Shown one piece after another: positions 1,184 through 26,971 of a DNA stretch of 28,995 bases (its first letter is position 1; every line of letters starts with the position of its first letter). The position numbers and the translations under genes are program-made. This DNA is from a virus. The notes beneath the pieces were generated by a model, which worked only from the letters and a program-made list of their open reading frames with translations, had not been told where the DNA came from and did not search any database. Location: the IMG/VR virus record IMGVR_UViG_3300035126_000057, positions 1-28,995 of that record; one strand, written 5' to 3'.

Positions 1184-1402
1184 TTAGGAGATTGCTTTTA
1201 CAGCGAGATTGAGCGCAACAGAGACACCAGCCCCGACAGCCGCAGCCATACCCATAGTGAAAGACCGCGAATGCTCCAGTTGCCGAAGTCGTTCTTCATG
1301 GTTCTTCAACTGCTCTTCTTGGATTCGCTGCATTTGAATCAGGGTATCGACCTTGCCTTCAAGGCGGCCAATGGCCAGCATGATTTCTGGTTCGCCGTGC
1401 AT
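1184..1402 (-). CDS. XhlA-like coiled-coil protein with C-terminal membrane segment (possible holin)
   Basis: A 72-residue protein. The ATG at 1400-1402 is preferred because it lies one base after the stop of the collar-domain gene; the longer upstream frame only shadows that gene. Residues about 8-50 form a charged coiled coil (IGRLEGKVDTLIQMQRIQEE, then HEERLRQLEH). They are followed by one hydrophobic segment of about 22 residues (MGMAAAVGAGVSVALNLAV) at the C-terminus. This layout is typical of haemolysin XhlA-type and similar small phage proteins linked to lysis. In T7 the holin gene 17.5 also follows the fibre gene 17, so a holin or lysis-accessory role is a fair inference, not proven. 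The upstream ribosome site is weak, which fits coupling to the previous gene. Confidence 0.72.
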   Translation of the reverse strand: MHGEPEIMLAIGRLEGKVDTLIQMQRIQEEQLKNHEERLRQLEHSRSFTMGMAAAVGAGVSVALNLAVKAIS

Positions 1403-3236: not shown

Positions 3237-6200
3237 TCAATCCCTGTCTCTAGGTTGCGTCTTTTCCAAATTGTATTCATCAACAATGTCCTGTTCCTTG
3301 ATGTTCAGCCATTGCTTGATGATTGGAATGTTCTGGAATGGGAGCAGCAATCGTGCCTTATGAAGCGTTCCTTGGGTGATCTCCCGTTCAATGTCAAGGC
3401 CAAGCGGCTTGCCAACGGACCTGCCGTAGACATCCTTGGCAATGCCTCCGGCTCTGGATACGGTGGCCAGTCCCGGAAAGCCGTACCAAGCCAGTCCTGA
3501 GTAACGATATGGAGAGAACAGCGGATCCTTGTCCACCAGCGTTGTCCAGAGCGCATCGGTTCCGGTGGTGGGCAGGAAGAATTCGGATGGTCCCATCAGG
3601 CTGCCTCTTAGGGCTCCAGCAACCGTCAAGGTCTTCTCCGTTTCAGCGGCCCTTTCCTTGTCTCCTGCCGCAACCTGAGACCGCCAATCGGCATAGTTAC
3701 GGCCATAGGAAATCAGTCCGCTGAGGAGCATGGTGCTGGTGATTTCCTGAGCCACCTGCACTCCACCACCCTTGGCAGTACGGCCCGCATTCTGGATGAG
3801 GAAGTTGTCGATTCCCTTCAGATTGAAGGTTCGGAACTGAGTCACAAGTCGGCCAAAGAACCCAAATGCCAACTTGTGGAAGTCGCCTCTGGTTGGAATG
3901 CTCTGAATTCGGCTCTCAACCATGCGCTGCACGAAAGCCTTGATCAGGTCCATTTCCTTGGAATCAAGATTCTTGAGATTGGTGATGCGGGCTCCCAAGA
4001 ATCCTTCACGGATCTCTGCATTGCTGCCGACAAAATCAATGATCTGCTGGTACTGCTCAGGTTCAAGTCCAAGGGCTCGGATCGAAGCGTTGTCCATCCG
4101 AGTAGTGACGCCACGGCTTACGTCATAGAGGTGTTGCAGGGTGGATGCGGCGGTCAACTGCTGGGTGAAACTGGTGATCGGAGCAAGACCAGTTATGTCA
4201 GACATCAGGTTGGCGGTGGCGTCAATCCCCTTCTTGAGGACGCCATCCATGGACGAAGGCTGCACCGAGACATCCATGAAGGCCCGCCGCATTCGGTCTG
4301 TCGATGGGGCGAACCAAGTATCAATGAAGGAAGCAAAGTTCTGGGCCTCCTTGTCCATGTTCTTCCAGTTCCCAATCATCTCGTTGAGGATCGGCATCTG
4401 AACAAGCATCTGCCTCCATCCAACCGTGCTGACAATGCGGGCAATTTCACCGAAGGCCGCAAGTCCGAACTGGCCGCCCGTGGTTAGGTAGCCGTATGGG
4501 ATGGCGATTCCAAGGATCCGGTCGCCCCATCCGGTTGTTCCCCGGTGCAGGGGTTCATAGCGGATTGCCGCGATGACTTCCCTCAGGGCCTCTTCCGTTC
4601 CTTGCTCGACTTCTCCGCTGATCTTTCGGGCAATCTTGATGGCGTCATCAATGGATTCGGCCTCAACGATGTCCTTGAACACCTCTCCCGAAGCGTTGCG
4701 GAACTCTGCACCGAAGATCCCACGGGCCCTGAATTCGTCGTTGATGGCGTTCAGAAGCCTCTTCTCGTTGATTGCCCCCATCATGGAGGTCAGGTACTTC
4801 TTGAACACGAAGGGCAGATCATCATTCGTCAGGTCGGCAATGGACATGATTGTCTTGCCGTCCCCGAGGTGGTCAATCCCTCCCCCGTTCTGGATCGTTG
4901 CCTGTTCATTCAGGAGGATTCGAGCCCGACCAAAGGGAGTCTTGCTTCCTGCCTTGGCCTTGAGCGGGCCTTCGAGGCTCTGGAGCGCATCCGCCAGTTC
5001 CTGCTCATGTTCCAGAAGCGGAGCATTCTCAGTCTTGTTTGCGATGCTGATCAGCCGTTCCGCAAAGGCTTGAGCGGCTTCGTCAAGATCCCCGGTGAAG
5101 GTGGTCTCGACGCCGTTGATCACGACCTTGCGCCCGTTTTGATCGATGGACGAGCGGATCAGCCGGATCAGATCCTTCTTTCCCTCAGGAGTGCTGGCCA
5201 GACGCCGGATCCTGTCGAATCGCCACAGGCGGGGGAAATAGTTGACAACACCACCCTTCTCAAATCCCTTCAATCCCACCTGATAGGCCATGTCGTGGAC
5301 CTTGTTCAGGAGTTCCCTGAAGCCCTTGGCGGCATCGTTCACGGCATCCACGGCATCGTCATAGGCCCCGGAACGCATCTGCTGGCCGATTCGGCGGTGG
5401 AACTCCCGGCGCAGATCCTTGTTTCCAAATGCCATCTTGAATGCCGAAGTCAGATTGACCTTGTCCAGCGGCACATTCTGGTTTCCAGCACCGAGGGCAA
5501 ATCGGATGTACTGATTCCTGTAGCCACGGAGAAAGGAGAACATCAGGAAGTGAAGTGCTGACGTACCCGCTTCCATGATGGTCTGAGGTTGAGCCTTGTC
5601 CAGAGACCTGCGGGCATTGAAGGCATGCCATGCAATGTTTCGTACCGCGCCGTTCTTCGACTGAAGAACCCGAGCAGATTGATTTCCGAAGTAACTCCAG
5701 ATTGGAATTCGCTCTGTAAGAAACCGAGTCAGGCGAGGAGTATCGCTGAAAGTAGGATCGGTTCCAACGGCACGGGCAGTACCAGCAGCGGCTCCCGCAA
5801 CAGCCTGTCCGGGAATGATCTTGACCTTGTTCATCAGGCTGGCGGGAATGTAGATCTCCTTGCCAGACTTGGCCCGCTTGTTCACGATCTCTGCAACACG
5901 CATCCGGCGAGTGTTTGCATCAAGGATCGTCCTGCCACGGGCATTCACCCTTGTAGGAGGATTCTGTGCAATCACCCGGAGTTCGTCAACGATCTCTTCC
6001 ACGGCCTTTCGGTTCACCGTTCCACCACGGTTCTTGATCTCATGGAGGATCTGGAAGATCAGCGATCCTTCGGCTTCCTTGGTCAGTTTATTGGTGGTTC
6101 CATCAAGATGGGTACCCATTCGGAAGGCGTCCCAGATTGAAGTCACCATGTCATCTCGGGTAGCCACCGTTTCAAGGCTTCGGTCAATCCCGCCGATGAA

Positions 6201-7553
6201 GGCCCGTTCTCCGCTCTTCCGCAACTTTGCGGCCACCTCTGGAGCCAAGCCCTTGGTCACTTCTTCCCAGAAAGCCTTGTTGAATGCTCCAGCCACCAGT
6301 TTCTGAGACTCAACCTTGACCAACGCGGAAGCCACCAGATTGAAGACTTCCTTGGTCATCGGGCCGCCAGCCAACGAAACCTCAAAAGCGGCTGCCTTGA
6401 TTGCAGACCGGACTCCCATGACTTCTCCACGGACTGCGGCCTGACCAGCAACCCGAAGAGGCATCTCTCTTGTTCCGGGAACGAAGAAGTCCACGCCGGG
6501 TCGGAAGCCGGGAGTGCCGAAGGTGGCCGTCCGCTGCCAATCGTTCCACACCGCATCTGAAGCCTTGCCGACCTCGTCTGCAAGCGTCCCAGTTCCACGG
6601 GCAAACAACATCTGGTCGGCTGCCGCAACGGAATCGAAGGACAAGGCCGGGTCGTAACTGACCGTATATCCGCCGGGAAGGTTCACGGTCTTGGATCGGC
6701 GCAACTTGCTGGCCTCTTCGGCAATACGTTCAGCCGCGAATTGACGGCCAAACAGCAATCCCCCGATAAGGCCGTTGGCTGCTGCTGAAACGACGATGTC
6801 CTGAATTACCTGACCCGCTTCCGGCGAGTAGGTTGGATCCAGACCGTTCTTGGCACTTTGGTATGCGACTTCTTCCGCGATTCCAAAAGCCGTATACCGT
6901 GCGGCGAGACTGGTTCTGCTGATGGTGCTGGCGGCTTCTGTGGCGGACTCAGCGATGGTCTGGTGCATCTTCCAACGGCCAGACACCGAAGCGGCGGCGC
7001 GTCCAGCCAAAATCGTTTCGACGCCCATTCCGGTCAGGATCAGGGGTTCTGCGGCCATTGAGATGGCGGTCAATCCGGCAATATCTCCAACGGTTCCCAC
7101 GATGCCGCCAACACCTTGCGCCTGAGCCTCTGGAAGACCCGCCTTCACGAATCGCAGACGATCCTTGAAGTTCCCGTAGGTCTTGGCACTCAGGATGTAG
7201 TCCCAGTTGTCGAAGGGAACGCCCTGAAGTCCATCGACAATGCCTTCGATGTTGTTGTCCAGACCGAATGTCAGGTCATCCTTCAGGGGATCGGCTTCAG
7301 ACTTGGTCTTGTACAGGTTCAGCGGGGCATCTTCCTCGTCGGTAAACGGGTTGGCAACGGCCTCTCCGAGATACCAACCAAGGACTCCAGAGAGTGAACT
7401 CCTGTTCCCGAGTATGAATCGTCCACCGTACCCATCCACCATGTCCTGAACATCCGGGTCATGGATCTGGGCCTGTGTGGCTTTCTGTTCCATCTCAATT
7501 CGCTCGAACGGAGTGAGCGAGAAGATGGGAGAATCGAATGTTGCCTTTTCCAT
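3237..7553 (-). CDS. Internal virion protein D, T7 gp16-like
   Basis: A 1438-residue protein, the longest in the window, in the gp16 position between the gp15-like and fibre genes (T7 gp16 is 1318 residues). Proteins of this class form the internal core and are ejected into the host envelope to help DNA entry. The N-terminal third has several hydrophobic or glycine-rich stretches, for example GGIVGTVGDIAGLTAISMAA and VVSAAANGLIGGLLFG, consistent with membrane interaction. The C-terminal part has the conserved-looking segment FGRLVTQFRTFNLKGIDNFL. I do not see the N-terminal lytic transglycosylase domain of T7 gp16; the first 100 residues lack the usual catalytic Glu-Ser context. The start ATG has no clear ribosome site and lies 9 bp after the previous stop. 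Confidence 0.85.
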   Translation of the reverse strand: MEKATFDSPIFSLTPFERIEMEQKATQAQIHDPDVQDMVDGYGGRFILGNRSSLSGVLGWYLGEAVANPFTDEEDAPLNLYKTKSEADPLKDDLTFGLDNNIEGIVDGLQGVPFDNWDYILSAKTYGNFKDRLRFVKAGLPEAQAQGVGGIVGTVGDIAGLTAISMAAEPLILTGMGVETILAGRAAASVSGRWKMHQTIAESATEAASTISRTSLAARYTAFGIAEEVAYQSAKNGLDPTYSPEAGQVIQDIVVSAAANGLIGGLLFGRQFAAERIAEEASKLRRSKTVNLPGGYTVSYDPALSFDSVAAADQMLFARGTGTLADEVGKASDAVWNDWQRTATFGTPGFRPGVDFFVPGTREMPLRVAGQAAVRGEVMGVRSAIKAAAFEVSLAGGPMTKEVFNLVASALVKVESQKLVAGAFNKAFWEEVTKGLAPEVAAKLRKSGERAFIGGIDRSLETVATRDDMVTSIWDAFRMGTHLDGTTNKLTKEAEGSLIFQILHEIKNRGGTVNRKAVEEIVDELRVIAQNPPTRVNARGRTILDANTRRMRVAEIVNKRAKSGKEIYIPASLMNKVKIIPGQAVAGAAAGTARAVGTDPTFSDTPRLTRFLTERIPIWSYFGNQSARVLQSKNGAVRNIAWHAFNARRSLDKAQPQTIMEAGTSALHFLMFSFLRGYRNQYIRFALGAGNQNVPLDKVNLTSAFKMAFGNKDLRREFHRRIGQQMRSGAYDDAVDAVNDAAKGFRELLNKVHDMAYQVGLKGFEKGGVVNYFPRLWRFDRIRRLASTPEGKKDLIRLIRSSIDQNGRKVVINGVETTFTGDLDEAAQAFAERLISIANKTENAPLLEHEQELADALQSLEGPLKAKAGSKTPFGRARILLNEQATIQNGGGIDHLGDGKTIMSIADLTNDDLPFVFKKYLTSMMGAINEKRLLNAINDEFRARGIFGAEFRNASGEVFKDIVEAESIDDAIKIARKISGEVEQGTEEALREVIAAIRYEPLHRGTTGWGDRILGIAIPYGYLTTGGQFGLAAFGEIARIVSTVGWRQMLVQMPILNEMIGNWKNMDKEAQNFASFIDTWFAPSTDRMRRAFMDVSVQPSSMDGVLKKGIDATANLMSDITGLAPITSFTQQLTAASTLQHLYDVSRGVTTRMDNASIRALGLEPEQYQQIIDFVGSNAEIREGFLGARITNLKNLDSKEMDLIKAFVQRMVESRIQSIPTRGDFHKLAFGFFGRLVTQFRTFNLKGIDNFLIQNAGRTAKGGGVQVAQEITSTMLLSGLISYGRNYADWRSQVAAGDKERAAETEKTLTVAGALRGSLMGPSEFFLPTTGTDALWTTLVDKDPLFSPYRYSGLAWYGFPGLATVSRAGGIAKDVYGRSVGKPLGLDIEREITQGTLHKARLLLPFQNIPIIKQWLNIKEQDIVDEYNLEKTQPRDRD

Positions 7554-15104: not shown

Positions 15105-16241
15105 TTAGGCCGTGGCGTAGAGTTCGTAGCAGCACTCCTCGCGGAGGACGTTGTGACCCATGGCGTACTTGGCAAGCATGAGCGTACCAAGGCGTTCCAT
15201 GATGTACTCCGACTCCAGCGAGAGGTCCATCAACTTGACCGTGCCGAGAGCCTCACGGTGGAAGATGATGCCACGGGTGCTGGTGTAGTTGAGGCCAGAG
15301 TAGCCATCATCAGCAGTACCGCTCACATCGTTCTTGACACCCGTAGCACCGTGCAGCGGATCAGGAGTGCCACCAGAGGTGCGCTCATCAGCAGTCGGCA
15401 CATGGTTGCTCTTCATGATCTGGATGCCAGCAACCCGGATGATCTCGCCACGGGCCACGCTGCCCTCACCCGCATAGTCGCGGTTGATGGCATCGGACTG
15501 GCTGTTGACCATCTTGTAGTACTCGCCCGGAGGCAGGATGGCGAAGCGGTCCTCCGAGGGGACATTGGCCTCGTCCATCTTCTGGGCAGCCACGAAGAAG
15601 GCATCCAGCAGTTCATCACCCGTGGGCGTGGCAGTAGAACCAGCGCGAATACGGGCACCGAGGTAGCCGTCCGAAGCCGTCGAACCGCCGAAGCGATCCG
15701 TGCTCTTACGGGCACCAGCGATCACGCTGCGGATCAGGTTCTTGTCAGCCGTGTAGGCCAGAGCGCGACCGATCTCCGTGCTGTAGATGCTGCGAACATC
15801 GTAGTGGTTCTTCATCTCATCGATGTCGGCCACGAAGACGCTGGAGACAAGCACATCATCGATGAAGATGACCTTCTCGTTGTGCTTGAAGCGGCTGAGG
15901 TACTTGGACGATGCGCTGTTGCCCGTGTCAAACTGAACCGGGCTGCCGTAGGTTGCGCCACCAGTAACGCCGCTGGCATAAGCCTGTGCGCCCGTGGCCT
16001 CGCTGAGGACGGACTCGCCGGGGACATGGTACTTGGCACCAGCCACGCCAGTCACCGGGAAGGTAGCAGACTTGCCGCTCTGGATCGTGCGAACACGGTG
16101 GAGAGGCATCATCACGTTGTACTTCTCGAAGGTGGTGATGATCTCACCGCTGAAGACCTTCAGGAAGAGTGCATCAGCGTCAGCCCCGTAGGACCCGCTG
16201 TACGCCTGTCCCAGACGGGACGGCTGAACAAATTCAGGCAT
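15105..16241 (-). CDS. Major capsid protein, T7 gp10A-like
   Basis: A 378-residue HK97-fold-type shell protein (T7 gp10A is 345). The ATG at 16239-16241 has TTAGGAAACACACA before it. Family signatures include ALFLKVFSGEIITTFEKYNV near residue 24, then VRTIQSGKSATFPVTG, PGESVLSEA, KVIFIDDVLVSSVFVADIDE and RGIIFHREALGTVKLMDLS toward the C-terminus. The gene stands alone between two terminators and has the longest leader in the window, which fits very high expression. I see no obvious slippery site giving a gp10B-like extension: the frame after the stop runs straight into the terminator region, about 30 bp away. Confidence 0.96.
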   Translation of the reverse strand: MPEFVQPSRLGQAYSGSYGADADALFLKVFSGEIITTFEKYNVMMPLHRVRTIQSGKSATFPVTGVAGAKYHVPGESVLSEATGAQAYASGVTGGATYGSPVQFDTGNSASSKYLSRFKHNEKVIFIDDVLVSSVFVADIDEMKNHYDVRSIYSTEIGRALAYTADKNLIRSVIAGARKSTDRFGGSTASDGYLGARIRAGSTATPTGDELLDAFFVAAQKMDEANVPSEDRFAILPPGEYYKMVNSQSDAINRDYAGEGSVARGEIIRVAGIQIMKSNHVPTADERTSGGTPDPLHGATGVKNDVSGTADDGYSGLNYTSTRGIIFHREALGTVKLMDLSLESEYIMERLGTLMLAKYAMGHNVLREECCYELYATA

Positions 16242-16428
16242 TGTGTGTTTCCTAAGTGAAAGTTACGGTTGTAGATGATTGAATGCCTTCTGCCTCGGTT
16301 GTCCCTCGCAAGGGGCCGCCGCTTCAAGCACCTCCCCGGCCCATCTTTTAGCCGGAGAAAGAAAGAGACTCCCCAGATTCCTCTGAGGAGTCCCGATGGC
16401 CTACGCGAATCAGGTGAGGGTCAATGCC
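16242..16428 (-). promoter_or_regulatory. Capsid leader and probable promoter region
   Basis: This 187-bp gap is the largest in the window and contains no credible gene. On the minus strand it begins with a sequence resembling the core of the T3 RNA polymerase promoter (ATTGACCCTCAC against ATTAACCCTCAC). It then has a hairpin with a T-rich tail, a second GC-rich inverted repeat (GGGCCG with CGGCCC, about 16-base loop), and the capsid ribosome site. In T7 the strongest late promoter, phi10, sits at this place. The presence of a promoter is inferred from position; its exact sequence is not established. Confidence 0.4.
16355..16394 (-). terminator. Putative terminator or processing hairpin upstream of capsid
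   Basis: On the minus strand GGGACTCCTC pairs with GGGGAGTCTC, about 10 bp including two G-T wobbles, around a 10-base loop. The tail TTTCTTTCT follows directly. It lies between the lipoprotein gene and capsid. It could end upstream transcription or serve as an RNase III-type processing site that trims the capsid mRNA. Confidence 0.6.
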
Positions 16429-16668
16429 TCACGGCGCAGCCTGTGTGGTCTCTTCGGGCACATCAGCAGCCCACCAGCCAGCCGGGATATCAACCCGATT
16501 GGCCGACTTGACCCGAGTCCCGTCCTTCTGGACGATGAACACATGGGCCTTCACAGGCTCCGCAAGTTGAACCGGGGTTCCCGGCTGGACGATCAGCACG
16601 GTGGTTCCGCACCCGGCGAAGGAAACGAGAGCGAACGCCACCAGCGTCAGGGTCAGCATCTTTCGCAT
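16429..16668 (-). CDS. Small lipoprotein (spanin-like candidate)
   Basis: A 79-residue protein. The ATG at 16666-16668 follows CTAAGGAAACTT, the same 13-base leader TCTAAGGAAACTT used by the fibre gene. The N-terminus MRKMLTLTLVAFALVSFAGC is a lipoprotein signal peptide with lipobox SFAGC and Cys at position 20. The mature part (VQPGTPVQLAEPVKAHVFIV, then VKSANRVDIPAGWWAADVPE) would face the periplasm from a membrane. Similar small phage lipoproteins ending in an IPAGW motif occur beside holin-like genes, but I know of no proven function. Its start lies inside the upstream 83-residue ORF in the +1 frame, an arrangement like Rz/Rz1 spanin pairs. An outer-membrane spanin role is therefore a reasonable inference. 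Confidence 0.78.
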   Translation of the reverse strand: MRKMLTLTLVAFALVSFAGCGTTVLIVQPGTPVQLAEPVKAHVFIVQKDGTRVKSANRVDIPAGWWAADVPEETTQAAP

Positions 16669-16741
16669 AAGTTTCCTTAGATACCAAGCGTTCGATGAAT
16701 TCAAGGATGGCTGCAACAAGTTCCTTGACCCATCCCCACAT
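16490..16741 (-). CDS. Small ORF with amphipathic N-terminus, overlapping the lipoprotein gene out of frame
   Basis: An 83-residue frame. Its ATG shares one base with the stop of the two-helix protein (TGATG). The first 30 residues are plausible protein: MWGWVKELVAAILEFIERLV is an amphipathic or membrane-associated helix. They are followed by a polar Asp/Arg segment, KDADPDAGGVRSRFLRRVRN. The last 30 or so residues (Gly/Pro/Arg/Cys-rich) look like out-of-frame translation of the lipoprotein gene, so the C-terminus may have little sequence constraint. The tight coupling at the start and the 24 codons before the lipoprotein start argue that it is translated. It could be an inner-membrane spanin-like or holin-accessory protein. 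It lacks the long coiled coil of Rz. Confidence 0.5.
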   Translation of the reverse strand: MWGWVKELVAAILEFIERLVSKETYAKDADPDAGGVRSRFLRRVRNHRADRPAGNPGSTCGACEGPCVHRPEGRDSGQVGQSG

Positions 16742-16917
16742 CACTCTTTGGCATCCTTGGCCACGATGAGGCCGAGACCTGCCGTGCAAGCCGCGATGAC
16801 GGCGGCGACATCAAAGGTAGTGGCAGGATTGCCGTCCAGAAGTGCCATCACGGCTGAGGAAACAGCGGTGACGATGGTGGCGATCCCGAGTACGGTGGTC
16901 TTCATGTTGCTCTTCAT
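16741..16917 (-). CDS. Two-helix membrane protein, putative holin
   Basis: A 58-residue protein. Its ATG at 16915-16917 overlaps the scaffold stop as ATGA. A second in-frame ATG lies at codon 5. Two hydrophobic segments are visible: residues about 8-27 (TVLGIATIVTAVSSAVMALL) and about 37-53 (VAAVIAACTAGLGLIVA). A short polar turn (DGNPATTF) separates them, and a charged tail (KDAKE) follows. Small size, two membrane segments and a charged C-terminus are typical of class II holins. The following overlapping ORF and lipoprotein make a lysis cassette plausible. T7 has no genes between scaffold and capsid, so this location is atypical. Confidence 0.75.
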   Translation of the reverse strand: MKSNMKTTVLGIATIVTAVSSAVMALLDGNPATTFDVAAVIAACTAGLGLIVAKDAKE

Positions 16918-17642
16918 CGGTTCACTCCAAGTGCGTTGGAAATGGCGACCCTCTGCTCGACATCCTTGCGATATGCGGGGTCCTTGGCATACCGGGGATC
17001 CTTCATGGCTGCCACGATCTCAGCGATGCTGCGGAAAGCCCCGCCGCTCGGTCCCGTGGTTTCGCCCTGAATCAGACGCCCCCTGACCATGCCATTGGTC
17101 TGCTCATAGCGGGCCTTGAGGCCCTGCACGGCCATTCGGATGGAAGACATGTCGCCGCCATCCATGATCTTGTTGAAGGCGTCAACCTCCGATTCATCAA
17201 GCGCAGAGGCAGCCCATTCAGTCATGGCAGAGTACTGGTCTTCGCCACCGACGATGGACATCACGGCATTGATGTTCCCCTGCTGAACGGCCTTCTGACC
17301 TTCGACATAGGCTCGAACGAGGGGTTCGGGAATGCCCATGGAAGCAATGGCCTTGACCGACTCGTCGCTCAGGTCTCCGCTTTCGGAGAATTCCTGCGTG
17401 TACTTGTCCAGCCCGCTCAGGTCAGCAGCCTTGGTTCCGATCTTTTTCTCAAGTTCCCCGTAAGCCTTGGCAAGGTCTTCGGCACTCTGGAACTTCTCGG
17501 GAAGCCAGCCCGGACGTTGTTCCTGAGCGGGCTCGGATGCTGCGGGCTGAGACTGCTCATTCATGGCCTGAGCCAGAGCATCAGTCTCGTTGTTTGACTC
17601 TGCGGTATCCCGGACGATGGTGACTTGCTGGTGATTGCTCAT
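16914..17642 (-). CDS. Capsid assembly (scaffolding) protein, T7 gp9-like
   Basis: A 242-residue acidic, helical protein (T7 gp9 is 307). Its ATG overlaps the portal stop as ATGA. The N-terminus is Asn/Gln/Glu/Ala-rich and disordered. It is followed by the scaffold signature RPGWLPEKFQSAEDLAKAYG and a coiled stretch. The C-terminus has FRSIAEIVAAMKDPRYAKDP followed by AYRKDVEQRVAISN, the conserved capsid-binding helix region of gp9-like proteins. It guides procapsid assembly with the portal and the major capsid protein and is released on maturation. Confidence 0.92.
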   Translation of the reverse strand: MSNHQQVTIVRDTAESNNETDALAQAMNEQSQPAASEPAQEQRPGWLPEKFQSAEDLAKAYGELEKKIGTKAADLSGLDKYTQEFSESGDLSDESVKAIASMGIPEPLVRAYVEGQKAVQQGNINAVMSIVGGEDQYSAMTEWAASALDESEVDAFNKIMDGGDMSSIRMAVQGLKARYEQTNGMVRGRLIQGETTGPSGGAFRSIAEIVAAMKDPRYAKDPAYRKDVEQRVAISNALGVNR

Positions 17643-20624: not shown

Positions 20625-20828
20625 TCATTCCTCCGATTGGGCGTCCGTTGCCCGAGTCAGGACTTCGATCAGACCATAGGAACCATGCAGCGAAGCCTTC
20701 ACGGCAATGCTGTAGTTGTCCTCGCCCTTGCCCTTTGCCCTGTAGCCGATGAAGAGCATTTCCTCGTATCGCTTCTTCAGTTCGTGCAGGAGTTCATCGG
20801 TTTCCATGAATTCAATGGGTGTAGACAT
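20625..20828 (-). CDS. Hypothetical small acidic protein
   Basis: A 67-residue protein with an ATG after GAGGCTCAAGC. It overlaps the LAGLIDADG gene by 17 bp upstream and touches the exonuclease start downstream. The first half is a charged helix (METDELLHELKKRYEEMLFI). The second (NYSIAVKASLHGSYGLIEVL) looks like a beta-alpha element. It has no signal peptide or membrane segment. I do not recognise it. The tight packing argues that it is real. Confidence 0.65.
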   Translation of the reverse strand: MSTPIEFMETDELLHELKKRYEEMLFIGYRAKGKGEDNYSIAVKASLHGSYGLIEVLTRATDAQSEE

Positions 20829-21195
20829 GCTTGAGCCTCTTCAGGGAGTTGATGTGCCGTTCGCGCTCATCCTTGTCCTTGGCAGCCGAAGCCGCGAACA
20901 GGGCGACGATCTGGGGATACTTGATGATTGAGTACTGAGCCACGCAGGACAGGTAGGAGAGGGCGTTTGATCCGCAAAGCGTCCATACAAAGATGTCCTC
21001 ATCCTTGAGTCTGACGCTCCCGCCCCACCTGTCCTGCATGTACATGAGAACACCGTAGTGCTTGTTGGTCACTTCGACGGAAGGGGTACGGTTCCACCGT
21101 ATGCACCCCTCGCCATCAAGCAATCCAGCGGCATAGGCGTTCAATGTGTTTCTGCCCAGTTTGCCCCCACTCGGTACTCGCCGTCCAGTTGGCAT
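20812..21195 (-). CDS. Free-standing single-motif LAGLIDADG homing-endonuclease-like protein
   Basis: A frame of up to 127 residues directly after DNA polymerase. The motif AYAAGLLDGEGCIRW matches the LAGLIDADG signature with the catalytic acidic residue (Glu of DGEG). It is followed by VEVTNKHYGVLMYMQDRWGG and FVWTLCGSNALSYLSCVAQY then SIIKYPQIVALFA, the usual beta-beta-alpha pattern of this fold. A single motif implies homodimer action. The start is uncertain: the ATG at 21195 has no ribosome site and overlaps polymerase by 55 bp. A TTG at 21142-21144 overlaps the polymerase stop as TTGA and would give 110 residues beginning just before the motif. No intron or intein is visible in the neighbouring polymerase. 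It could be an active free-standing endonuclease or a co-opted relic. Confidence 0.75.
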   Translation of the reverse strand: MPTGRRVPSGGKLGRNTLNAYAAGLLDGEGCIRWNRTPSVEVTNKHYGVLMYMQDRWGGSVRLKDEDIFVWTLCGSNALSYLSCVAQYSIIKYPQIVALFAASAAKDKDERERHINSLKRLKHVYTH

Positions 21196-24124: not shown

Positions 24125-24408
24125 AGTCCACACTCCTCGTCAAGTTGTGAGAGTCGATCCATTGCCTTTTGCTGTTCCGTCTTTGGCTTCTCAAAGCAGT
24201 CCCAACCGCGAGACTCTGCGTATTCGTGTGCGGTCTGCGCTCCCAGACAAACGCTTGGCCGGAGGAACGACACCTCCCGCCTCGCCTCGTCGCGCTCGGC
24301 GGTGAGCCTGTCGATGATGCCGTAAAATCGTTCGTACTGCGCTGCAAGAGCCTTCTGAAACTCCTTGCCAGACTCCGACATCTCAAACTGCGGGGGATCA
24401 AATGTCAT
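24121..24408 (-). CDS. Hypothetical coiled-coil protein between helicase and thyX
   Basis: A 95-residue acidic protein. Its ATG overlaps the primase-helicase end by 11 bp and has GGAG upstream. Its stop overlaps the thyX start as ATGA. Residues about 15-48 are a charged helix (KEFQKALAAQYERFYGIIDR, then LTAERDEARREVSFL) likely to form a coiled coil. The C-terminal third contains two Cys residues and a second charged helix (KTEQQKAMDRLSQLDEE). It has no signal peptide or membrane segment. I do not recognise a family. Confidence 0.68.
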   Translation of the reverse strand: MTFDPPQFEMSESGKEFQKALAAQYERFYGIIDRLTAERDEARREVSFLRPSVCLGAQTAHEYAESRGWDCFEKPKTEQQKAMDRLSQLDEECGL

Positions 24409-25987
24409 CGTTCATCTCCATTTCGACTTCTGCAAGCCGTCCGGTTTCCTTGAAGTAGCGCAACATCCCGGCAACACCTGTGTCTCCGGTGAATCGGTTC
24501 TTGAGTACCCGCAGCACCAGTTCGTTTGGGTTCTCGCCCTGCTGATTCCGCTCCAGACCGATCACCGCATCAGCCAACTGGGCAATGGAGTGGGAGCCTC
24601 GGAGTTGGGCAAGCGAGGTGGTTGCACCTTCCTCATGCCCACGGTCGCCGTCCGGTCTGCGGAGGTGAGAGACAACGAACATGGCCGCCTGTGTCTCCTC
24701 GACGAGTGAGCGCAGGGAGGTCATCGCGTTGTCGATGAGCCGCCTCTCGTCCCCATCACCGAGGCCCGACACGACGATGGACAGGTGGTCGAGGAAGATG
24801 TAGTCGCAACCGCACGACTTGATCATGTACCGGGTTCGTGCGAGGAGGTTCTCCGGGTCAACCGATCCGAAGTGGTCGAAAAGTACAACTTTCGCCACGG
24901 TCGCATCGAATGCCTCTCGCTTCTGCTCCTCAGAGACTCCACGATCTGCCCAAAAGTAGGGCGGTGCATTGAGGTGGATGCCCATGAGGTTCCGTGCCGT
25001 TCGCTTGACGGACTCTTCAAGCATGAGCAGTCCGACCTTCTTGCCGGATCGGATGAGGTGGCAGACCATCTCCCTGCACACGGATGACTTCCCAATACCA
25101 GTACCTGATGTGAGTACGACCAGTTCGCCCTTACGAATGCCAAGCAGTTTCTCGTTGAGGGCTGACCAAGGGTAGGGTATCGAATCGTTGGGATCGTCTT
25201 CGTTGACTGCGTCCCAAAGATCAGACCCAAGTACCACGCCATCCGGCCTGTAAGCCTTCGCACCATAGACAGCATCGATCACCTTCTTTCCTTCGCCAGC
25301 CATGTGGGCTTCGTTCGCGTCCTTGAAGTTCGGGATCGTCCCGATCTTGGCCTTGCCGGGAGTCAGCAGCATGGCGCACTCCTTGGCCGCCTTGCGCCCC
25401 GGCTCATCGTCATCGAACATGATCACTACCGAGTCGAACTTCTCCAGCCACTCTAGGTTGTTCTGGAACGCCTTGATGGCACCGGACGCACCCGTGGGGA
25501 CGGAGACAACAGGCCACTTGTTGCCGAAGAGTTGGCTCACGGTGAGGGCATCCACTTCTCCCTCGGTAACCGTGACCATGCGGCCTCCGTCACGCCACAG
25601 GTGCATTCCGTACAGCGGCAGCGACTTGGTGTCACCGATGCTGATGAAGTCCTTGGACGGGAAGCGGAGTTTCTGGGCCACCACCTCCCCGTCCTTGATG
25701 TATTGGGCGACCTGAACGGTCTGGTTGTTGAACTGGCCGATCCCGTACTTGAAGAACCGACAGGTCTCCTCGCTGATTCCACGCTTCTTGAGGGAGGAGA
25801 AGTCCACCGGGATCAGGTCTGTCCTTCTTGGAAGGCCAGTTGTCTCAACTGGATTCGTGGGGTTCTCGTAGTACTTGCACCCGAAGCAGTACCCGTGTCC
25901 ATCCGTGTAACGGGCGAGGTTGTCCTTGCTCCCGCATCCGGGGCACGGTTCATGCTGTACGAACTCCGATTCGCTGCGGCTGGTCAT
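24398..25987 (-). CDS. Bifunctional DNA primase-helicase, T7 gp4-like
   Basis: A 529-residue protein (T7 gp4A is 566). The ATG at 25985-25987 has GGGAAGAACGAA before it; the longer frame overlaps the RusA gene by 116 bp and adds only low-complexity residues. A zinc ribbon lies at Cys15, Cys18, Cys34 and Cys37 (CPGCGSKDN...CFGC). The primase Toprim domain follows: VTEGEVDALTVSQ and VIMFDDDEPGRKAAKECA. The helicase domain has Walker A VLTSGTGIGKSSVCRE, Walker B region YIFLDHLSIVV, SHLRRPDGDRGHEEGATTS, and LRGSHSIAQLADAVIGLERN, near identical in pattern to T7. The hexamer unwinds DNA and primes the lagging strand with the polymerase and SSB encoded nearby. The C-terminus is acidic (EVEMEMNDDI), as needed for polymerase contact in T7. 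Confidence 0.96.
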   Translation of the reverse strand: MTSRSESEFVQHEPCPGCGSKDNLARYTDGHGYCFGCKYYENPTNPVETTGLPRRTDLIPVDFSSLKKRGISEETCRFFKYGIGQFNNQTVQVAQYIKDGEVVAQKLRFPSKDFISIGDTKSLPLYGMHLWRDGGRMVTVTEGEVDALTVSQLFGNKWPVVSVPTGASGAIKAFQNNLEWLEKFDSVVIMFDDDEPGRKAAKECAMLLTPGKAKIGTIPNFKDANEAHMAGEGKKVIDAVYGAKAYRPDGVVLGSDLWDAVNEDDPNDSIPYPWSALNEKLLGIRKGELVVLTSGTGIGKSSVCREMVCHLIRSGKKVGLLMLEESVKRTARNLMGIHLNAPPYFWADRGVSEEQKREAFDATVAKVVLFDHFGSVDPENLLARTRYMIKSCGCDYIFLDHLSIVVSGLGDGDERRLIDNAMTSLRSLVEETQAAMFVVSHLRRPDGDRGHEEGATTSLAQLRGSHSIAQLADAVIGLERNQQGENPNELVLRVLKNRFTGDTGVAGMLRYFKETGRLAEVEMEMNDDI

Positions 25988-26354
25988 TTCGTTCTTCCCA
26001 TTCGATTTCGATTCGTGGCTCTCTGCCGTACTGCTTGGTGGCTTCGATGCACATGATCTGGACATCGTCCTCCCACGCCCATCCGTTGAGCGAGTCGAGG
26101 ATCGACTTGATGTGATTGTCGATGTCGCCTACTGGCCAAAGATTCGATGGCTTCTTAGGCGACCGACAAAAGAAAGAGATCTTTACATGCAGGGGCCCCG
26201 AGAGGGGGCAGCCCTTGGGCTTCTTGATGGCCGCAAGGGCTGCCTTTGCCTCTCGGCGGAACCGCTCGTAGGTCTTTCCGTAGTAGGCAAACCCCCGCCG
26301 AGAAACTCGGGGGCGGCTTGCCGGGGTCGGATCAACCCACAGGACGATCTTCAT
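25950..26354 (-). CDS. rusA: RusA-type Holliday junction resolvase
   Basis: A 134-residue endonuclease. Its ATG shares one base with the SSB stop (TGATG). The RusA catalytic pattern is clear: VGDIDNHIKSILDSLNGWAW, with acidic residues at Asp77, Asp79 and Asp87, followed by WEDDVQIMCI with Asp96/Asp97. The N-terminus IVLWVDPTPASRPRVSRRGF and its basic residues fit DNA binding. T7 uses a different enzyme, gp3 endonuclease I, at the same place in the gene order to resolve branched DNA before packaging. RusA probably replaces it. It overlaps the primase-helicase start by 38 bp. Confidence 0.88.
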   Translation of the reverse strand: MKIVLWVDPTPASRPRVSRRGFAYYGKTYERFRREAKAALAAIKKPKGCPLSGPLHVKISFFCRSPKKPSNLWPVGDIDNHIKSILDSLNGWAWEDDVQIMCIEATKQYGREPRIEIEWEERNDQPQRIGVRTA

Positions 26355-26971
26355 CAGAAGTCGTTGTCCTCGTCGGTGTCCGTGGCCGCCTCGGTCGCAG
26401 CCTCCTGCGCCTTGAAGCCCTTCGGATCGGCGGTGAAGCCATAGGCATCAAAGCGATCTCCGGGGGTGTACTCGGTCAGGTCGATGATCTGCACCGCCTT
26501 CATGCGAAGGCTCACGCCCGCGCCGATCATGGCGGTGAAGAACGGAACGACCTCGAAGGCCACCTTGATGCGGGAACCGGAGCCCACGTTCGGCGGGGTC
26601 TGGATCGCTGTGCCGGATGCGTCGAAGATCATCGGCTTCTGCGCCCATGACTTCTCGTCGTTGCCCGCCTTGGCCTTCAACTTGAACTTGACTCGCACCA
26701 TGTCTCCCTCGCCGTCCTTGATGGGGAGATCGGCCCGCTTCAACTTCTTTCCGCCCTTGCTCTCGCAGGTTGCCTTGTACGCCTCGTCAGCAGCCTTCTG
26801 GAGCGACGAGATGAACGCGGCGGCCTCCTTGTTGGTGCTGTCGAGTTCAAGGTCCACGCTGTACACGCCGTCCTTGTCGAACTTGGTGTCGGGCGTGGTC
26901 AGCCGTGGGTAGATGGCCGTGCCGACCGGGGTCGTGAGGCGAACGAACTTCTTCTTTGCTGTGGCACTCAT
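26354..26971 (-). CDS. Single-stranded DNA-binding protein, T7 gp2.5-like
   Basis: A 205-residue OB-fold-type protein (T7 gp2.5 is 232). The ATG has AAAGGAGAACTCAC before it, one of the best ribosome sites in the window. The core (FVRLTTPVGTAIYPRLTTPD, then KFDKDGVYSVDLELD and IKVAFEVVPFFTAMIGAGVS) matches phage gp2.5-like proteins. The sequence ends with a disordered acidic tail and a terminal Phe (ATDTDEDNDF). In T7 such a tail contacts polymerase and helicase. It coats ssDNA and promotes annealing and recombination. It is the first gene after RNA polymerase and is preceded by the CTAG-rich 18-mer. Confidence 0.93.
   Translation of the reverse strand: MSATAKKKFVRLTTPVGTAIYPRLTTPDTKFDKDGVYSVDLELDSTNKEAAAFISSLQKAADEAYKATCESKGGKKLKRADLPIKDGEGDMVRVKFKLKAKAGNDEKSWAQKPMIFDASGTAIQTPPNVGSGSRIKVAFEVVPFFTAMIGAGVSLRMKAVQIIDLTEYTPGDRFDAYGFTADPKGFKAQEAATEAATDTDEDNDF

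Follow-up and report, generated by a model that had tools for sequence, protein, structure and literature searches.

Three small genes lie between the scaffold and major capsid genes of the virus record analysed here, all on the minus strand: a gene for a 58-aa membrane protein, an 83-codon open reading frame (ORF83), and a gene for a 79-aa lipoprotein. The window, by which we mean the whole stretch of DNA that was analysed, is a 28,995-base IMG/VR virus record, and its features are collected in Table 1. The coordinates, frames, and lengths given for the three genes in a preliminary description were reconfirmed from the open reading frames and the sequence. The motif ATGA is common to the stop of the scaffold gene and the start of the 58-aa gene, and TGATG to the stop of the 58-aa gene and the start of ORF83; these coupled starts had been described before, and the coupling proved to be conserved among relatives. 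The lipoprotein gene starts inside ORF83, in the +1 frame, and ends beyond it, again as previously described; the two distances are 73 nt and 61 nt, respectively. Its Shine-Dalgarno sequence, AAGGA, also encodes part of the conserved SKET motif of ORF83.

Table 1. Position and basis of the features of the cassette, of its flanks, and of the second small membrane protein gene.
Feature	Position	Strand	Basis and remarks
Scaffold gene, upstream flank of the cassette	16914..17642	(-)	phrog_1052 E 4e-56; PF05396 E 5e-16
58-aa small membrane protein	16741..16917	(-)	ORF listing; in 8/8 lineage genomes compared
ORF83 (83 aa, whole frame)	16490-16741	(-)	ORF listing
ORF83 selected core, codons 1-48	16598..16741	(-)	open in relatives; codon-position bias for the ORF83 frame
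ORF83 C-terminal tail, codons 49-83 and stop, run-on	16490..16597	(-)	constrained only as lipoprotein frame
Lipoprotein Shine-Dalgarno AAGGA, inside ORF83, 5 nt upstream of the ATG	16674..16678	(-)	sequence; in most relatives
79-aa lipoprotein, signal peptide 1-19, lipobox FAG-C20 (cysteine codon 16609-16611)	16429..16668	(-)	sequence, alignments
Two-frame overlap, 179 nt (ORF83 codons 25-83 / lipoprotein codons 1-59)	16490..16668	(-)	sequence
Intrinsic-terminator-like hairpin between lipoprotein and capsid genes (13 bp, GGAA loop, T-rich tail)	16365..16394	(-)	
Major capsid gene, downstream flank of the cassette	15105..16241	(-)	PF21703 E 5e-61; phrog_267 E 3e-72
72-aa XhlA-like protein, after the tail-fibre genes	1184..1402	(-)	weak PF10779 match; conserved in complete relatives

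The identified genes of the window are all on the minus strand and follow a T7-like order, from RNA polymerase (truncated at the window end), SSB, RusA-like nuclease, primase-helicase, DNA polymerase, and exonuclease to portal, scaffold, capsid, tail tubes, internal virion proteins, and tail fibre. Where no family matched, genes were named from their position and sequence. In the window (24398-26971, minus strand) and in relatives G001-G004 and G384-G386, the genes for SSB, RusA-like nuclease, and primase-helicase are directly consecutive. A pooled scan gave a weak LAGLIDADG_3 match (E 0.003) that presumably stems from a 127-aa ORF after the DNA polymerase gene (20812-21195, minus strand); since each of the eight genomes compared has a relative of this ORF, it may have ceased to be a mobile homing endonuclease. 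The match of the 1438-aa gp16-like internal virion protein (3237-7553, minus strand) to the T7 gp16-type family "internal virion protein with endolysin domain" begins only at profile position 273, and the N-terminal part of the profile thus appears to be missing from the protein. A conserved small protein of a 125-aa class (L044:11719-12087, plus strand, and relatives) is encoded after the terminase gene; it carries a LHEILEMVNEVHDLGLSE-type motif, has no PHROG match, and possibly adopts a zinc-binding peptidase-like fold.

Distribution of the cassette and selection on its two frames

A scan of IMG/VR with the lipoprotein as query returned 29 loci, and profile scans returned 47 loci with the ORF83 core and 80 with the lipoprotein. 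Every locus covering the region has the same three-gene order, with the lipoprotein gene in +1 to ORF83 and the stop of the 58-aa gene touching the ORF83 start, and this layout holds even in relatives with about 50% lipoprotein identity (L149-L158). The ORF83 frame is intact in all the relatives covering the region (at least 28). Either the loss of ORF83 or a stop in it would have spoken against the preliminary description, but none of them lacks ORF83 and none has a stop in its core: across 53 distinct DNA versions (IMG/VR contigs) and the divergent L153 and L154, the first ~48 codons are always open.

Among annotated phages (50,697 records), no convincing match to any of the three cassette proteins was obtained, and the search for relatives in isolated phages was likewise negative for the lipoprotein (best E 0.6), ORF83 (best E 5), and the 58-aa protein. 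Bacterial and archaeal genomes yielded a single match, on a contig of a Proteobacteria MAG (L159) that is apparently phage. Two other pattern matches in host genomes (L160 and L161) were false, and no cassette match was present in 368 other genomes of Proteobacteria.

Selection on the two frames was analysed by codon position on the 53 distinct aligned DNA blocks, with parsimony counts of the changes on a tree that included 48 of these blocks. Before the overlap, the changes at ORF83 codon positions 1, 2, and 3 were 92, 31, and 186, respectively; over codons 25-43, which face the lipoprotein signal peptide, they were 52, 45, and 123 (chi-square p 9e-12). The counts became 103, 19, and 7 in codons 49-60, and 130, 24, and 20 in codons 61-78. 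Coherently, the ratio of synonymous to non-synonymous changes in the signal-peptide stretch was 278:265 in the ORF83 frame and 56:498 in the lipoprotein frame, and it was reversed beyond that stretch (26:933 and 805:173, respectively). From these counts it follows that constraint on the DNA is exerted through the ORF83 frame to about codon 44, and through the lipoprotein frame from there on. At the codon level, both frames are thus protein-coding across the related phages, with a switch from one to the other, and both overlapping frames are under protein-level selection. The signal peptide pays for the overlap, hydrophobicity being its sole requirement. For the SKxT motif of ORF83 alone, conservation may partly reflect the embedded Shine-Dalgarno sequence.

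Other accounts of ORF83 were tried and rejected. That it is a chance open reading frame is ruled out by its conservation and codon-position bias. Its conservation is not a by-product of the signal peptide either, because lipoprotein-synonymous sites are conserved there and the second position of the lipoprotein codons is the most variable one. The 83-residue protein as a functional unit was also discarded, since codons ~49-83 evolve only as lipoprotein sequence. The cassette is a clear natural two-frame gene, in which the hand-over of selection between frames can be located within a few codons.

Predicted products of the three genes

The 58-aa protein has hydrophobic stretches around residues 7-24 and 36-53, a K/R-rich N-terminus, and an AKD C-terminus; the loop between the helices reads DGNPATTFD in the window, and its conserved form is DGDPATTFD. 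Judged from sequence and hydropathy, this is the anatomy of class II holins (two transmembrane helices and charged termini), and it is by anatomy only that the earlier view of a two-helix, holin-like protein is borne out. Compared with holin families, three members gave only E 0.3-0.4 to phrog_263 and phrog_9752, and nothing meaningful emerged in Pfam. Just one other small membrane protein is conserved in the lineage, the XhlA-like protein, with a predicted cytoplasmic coiled coil and a C-terminal transmembrane helix. The gene of the T7 holin gp17.5 sits after the tail-fibre genes, which is the position of the XhlA-like gene. The XhlA-like protein could be a holin or a partner in lysis.

The lipoprotein is the single conserved lipoprotein of the lineage. 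Its lipobox region reads MRKMLTLTLVAFALVSFAGC-GTT, the cysteine being invariant in the alignments, and its mature domain of ~59 aa contains the near-invariant motifs GTPVQLAEPV, DGT, and IPAGWW. The AF2 model (pLDDT 80, pTM 0.43) consists of a signal helix and a small beta domain of short strands. The fold search gave no PDB match, and in BFVD only unnamed viral homologues were found, including A0A6J7WFE6 at 48% identity. A BFVD match in Citrobacter phage CVT22 (71 aa) did not agree in length with the annotated spanins of that phage. The match to phrog_456, "Rz-like spanin," is weak (E 0.02-0.04) and covers residues 2-39 only, mostly signal peptide.

The preliminary description had presented ORF83 as an 83-residue product with an amphipathic N-terminus. 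The amphipathic helix was recovered, with a hydrophobic moment of 0.47-0.72 across 20 members, but the selected core comprises only ~48 codons. Indeed, the end of ORF83 varies among relatives (56-83 aa in total), with stops at 56-60 aa in several of them and at 56-57 aa in the most divergent. The core (MWGWVKELVAAILEFIERLVSKETYAKDADPDAGGVRSRFLRRVRNHR) is made of the amphipathic N-helix, which is neutral, an ADPxAGG linker, and a basic helix, and AF2 predicts helices at residues 3-24 and 33-48 (pLDDT 73). Its net charge ranges from 0 to +8, mostly +2 to +3, and the part after ADP carries +3 to +7. In 18 of the 20 members the hydropathy of the N-helix is too low for a membrane span, with charged residues mid-span and high amphipathicity. 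The other two, L008 and L068, are borderline, scoring 0.64 and 0.22 on a simplified, purpose-made transmembrane score that gave 0.41 for the 58-aa protein used as control. In agreement with the earlier remark that the putative inner partner has neither a long coiled coil nor a strong membrane span, no clear transmembrane span or coiled coil was detected in ORF83. It has no export signal either, and no match to a known spanin family or in the fold search was obtained with it.

The scaffold-capsid slot and the lysis genes of the lineage

The preliminary description had contrasted the cassette with T7, which has no gene between scaffold and capsid. This holds for T7 itself, but related pelagiphages, roseophages, rhizobiophages, and cyanophages do carry small genes there. 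Among sister T7-like phages, the slot is filled in HTVC011P/HTVC025P, CRP-118, RHEph21, and S-TIP37; the varied content of the slot in sister phages comprises HNH genes, hli, psbA, and a predicted outer-membrane-like barrel protein. It follows that the slot is not unusual, only its content here. The genes of the sister phages share the genome position of the cassette, and several of them encode small predicted membrane proteins, that of S-TIP37 being a predicted outer-membrane barrel (PF24653). However, they are different genes, with no sequence relation found to the cassette.

Taken singly, the terminator-like hairpin of the window is not above shuffled expectation. It recurs, at a conserved position, in most relatives, and among 16 distinct versions with a GNNA loop, 9 of the 13 stem positions are paired in all, several of them swapping the base pair (i.e., covarying). 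This recurrence suggests that the cassette is probably transcribed with the portal and scaffold genes and cut off from the capsid gene by a terminator. By analogy with T7, its expression would be late, as the preliminary description had supposed.

Unlike the lineage of the cassette, sister phages keep an Amidase_2 endolysin: it was found between endonuclease I and primase in all three of those tested (HTVC011P, CRP-118, and RHEph21), and in none of eight records of the lineage (seven of them 39-41 kb). The window and its relatives lack this amidase, which is of the T7 gp3.5 type. GH24, M15_4, GH108, SLT, and CHAP domains had no match in the eight lineage records; GH19 stands outside this negative set because the control for its search was silent. 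Furthermore, Pfam scans of the unknown proteins of the lineage revealed no lysin. A divergent endolysin could have been missed by the HMM search.

A scan for N-terminally hydrophobic ORFs in seven genomes and the window returned four kinds present in at least four genomes: the 58-aa gene, the lipoprotein, a gp14-like virion protein, and an out-of-frame ORF inside the primase gene. Thus, no standard i-spanin or other i-spanin candidate emerged from these eight genomes.

Candidate functions and comparison with known systems

Since neither a recognisable lysis enzyme nor an outer-membrane lysis pair of the standard kind was found, the cassette is the best candidate of the lineage for bursting the host envelope. 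The explanation that we favour, tentatively, is that it forms a late, co-translated envelope-disruption (lysis) module, with a spanin-like +1 overlap and without a transmembrane i-spanin. The module would be read with the scaffold gene and closed by its own terminator. The lipoprotein would be sorted to the outer membrane and act in an o-spanin-like manner, while the ORF83 peptide, with its basic tail, would bind a membrane surface through a helix lying in the plane, replacing the missing transmembrane i-spanin. This peptide could dock on the lipoprotein, or destabilise the outer membrane as disruptins do. The holin step could be provided by the 58-aa protein or by the XhlA-like protein, whose gene sits where T7 has gp17.5, and ORF83, having no export signal, would need such a step to reach the periplasm.

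The lysis module is favoured by the joint retention of the three genes in all relatives, including those with only ~50% identity, by the conserved translational coupling, and by the fact that the searches found neither an endolysin nor another i-spanin candidate in the lineage. On the other side, ORF83 lacks the i-spanin hallmark, an N-terminal transmembrane span followed by a periplasmic domain, and, compared with o-spanins, the mature domain of the lipoprotein is conserved to an unusual degree and is not rich in proline. Peptidoglycan cutting also stays without explanation in this proposal, there being no recognisable endolysin. In a more radical form, which we judge decidedly unlikely, the lineage lost both the amidase endolysin and Rz/Rz1 and lyses via the three-gene module, with the overlapping-frame peptide and the lipoprotein replacing the spanin pair and possibly the endolysin step too (e.g., through blocked wall synthesis).

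The lipoprotein and its partner could instead serve superinfection exclusion or envelope remodelling, blocking the receptor or the DNA entry of later phages, with the amphipathic peptide and the 58-aa protein guarding the inner membrane. T5 Llp and Cor are surface lipoproteins that act in this way, and a small phage lipoprotein is the hallmark of such receptor-blocking proteins. Two members weakly match the Cor family (phrog_1119, E 0.18), and the strict GTPVQLAEPV...IPAGWW conservation would fit a conserved host binding partner. Nevertheless, we consider exclusion unlikely: genes in the head block should be expressed late, while exclusion proteins are as a rule early or lysogenic; the coupled +1 overlap, present in all relatives, would be unexplained; and no outer-membrane disruption candidate would remain in the lineage genomes. 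A role as virion or assembly-associated small proteins, in membrane-assisted head assembly or as minor components injected at entry, is suggested by the location between scaffold and capsid, by co-translation with the scaffold, and by the varied cargo that sister phages carry in the slot. We find it improbable, as head proteins rarely have a lipobox and an exported signal peptide and the conserved terminator-like hairpin parts the cassette from the capsid gene.

Two further explanations stay closer to lysis. ORF83 could act as a disruptin-like peptide and lyse the outer membrane by itself, while the lipoprotein has a separate function and merely shares the DNA. Its ~48 aa, with an amphipathic and a basic helix, fit this idea, which is nonetheless improbable considering that its usual net charge is below the +7 of phiKT gp28, that the ORF83 search gave no phiKT match up to E 10, and that all relatives have a bona fide lipoprotein gene overlapping it. 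Alternatively, the pair could be a true two-component spanin in which ORF83 is the i-spanin and, in some members at least, its N-helix crosses the membrane as a short span. Many o-spanin genes have this +1 overlapped arrangement (PMC6139136), and the borderline helices of L008 and L068 point the same way. The mid-span charges and high amphipathicity of the other 18 members tested argue against it, as does the downstream part of ORF83, which is basic, hence predicted to be cytoplasmic, and only ~25 residues long; we give this explanation little credence.

Among known systems, T5 Llp and Cor resemble the cassette lipoprotein in being very small phage lipoproteins. They show no significant match to it, and the cassette lipoprotein differs in that its gene lies in the head block and is accompanied in every case by a second, overlapping gene. 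Disruptins are short peptides that form an amphipathic helix; their archetype comes from the T7-like phage phiKT (PMC12819732), a podophage listed as spanin-less (PMC6139136, Table 10). ORF83 resembles phiKT gp28 in its predicted product, a short helical peptide of amphipathic and basic character, and in coming from a T7-like podophage with no recognisable spanin. Unlike gp28, it is less basic, has no detected sequence similarity to it, and overlaps a lipoprotein gene; moreover, the gp28 gene lies between endolysin and holin, whereas ORF83 adjoins no endolysin gene.

The closest layout is that of two-component spanins, in which a lipoprotein gene overlapping the preceding gene in +1 is the classical o-spanin arrangement (Kongari et al., PMC6139136). 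The resemblance to Rz/Rz1 pointed out in the preliminary description corresponds to the "overlapped, +1" class of that survey, exemplified by P2 LysB/LysC, the Rz/Rz1 genes of lambda and T7 being of the embedded form. The features of such pairs present here are a lipoprotein with signal peptide and lipobox and, in all relatives, the out-of-frame overlap. Shared as well are a small +1 lipoprotein gene that runs past the preceding gene and has its own Shine-Dalgarno sequence, a small, putatively membrane-active partner, and a presumably late block. On the other hand, the upstream product has no clear transmembrane span, coiled coil, or export signal, and the mature lipoprotein is a conserved, predicted beta-containing domain that is not proline-rich. 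The location also differs, between scaffold and capsid and not at T7 18.5/18.7, with no endolysin or holin of a known family adjoining. An i-spanin must be a type II inner-membrane protein (Kongari et al., PMC6139136); ORF83 does not show this feature, and the cassette therefore cannot be filed as an Rz/Rz1 spanin. The same survey lists more than 120 i-spanins without coiled coils and 31 genomes with a lipoprotein but without an i-spanin, and it notes that other topologies could serve (PMC6139136). In about 13% of the Gram-negative phages of that survey no spanin could be identified, which leaves open how they break the outer membrane (PMC6139136). With three short genes, universal in one lineage that has no recognisable endolysin, the cassette is a clean candidate for spanin-less lysis.
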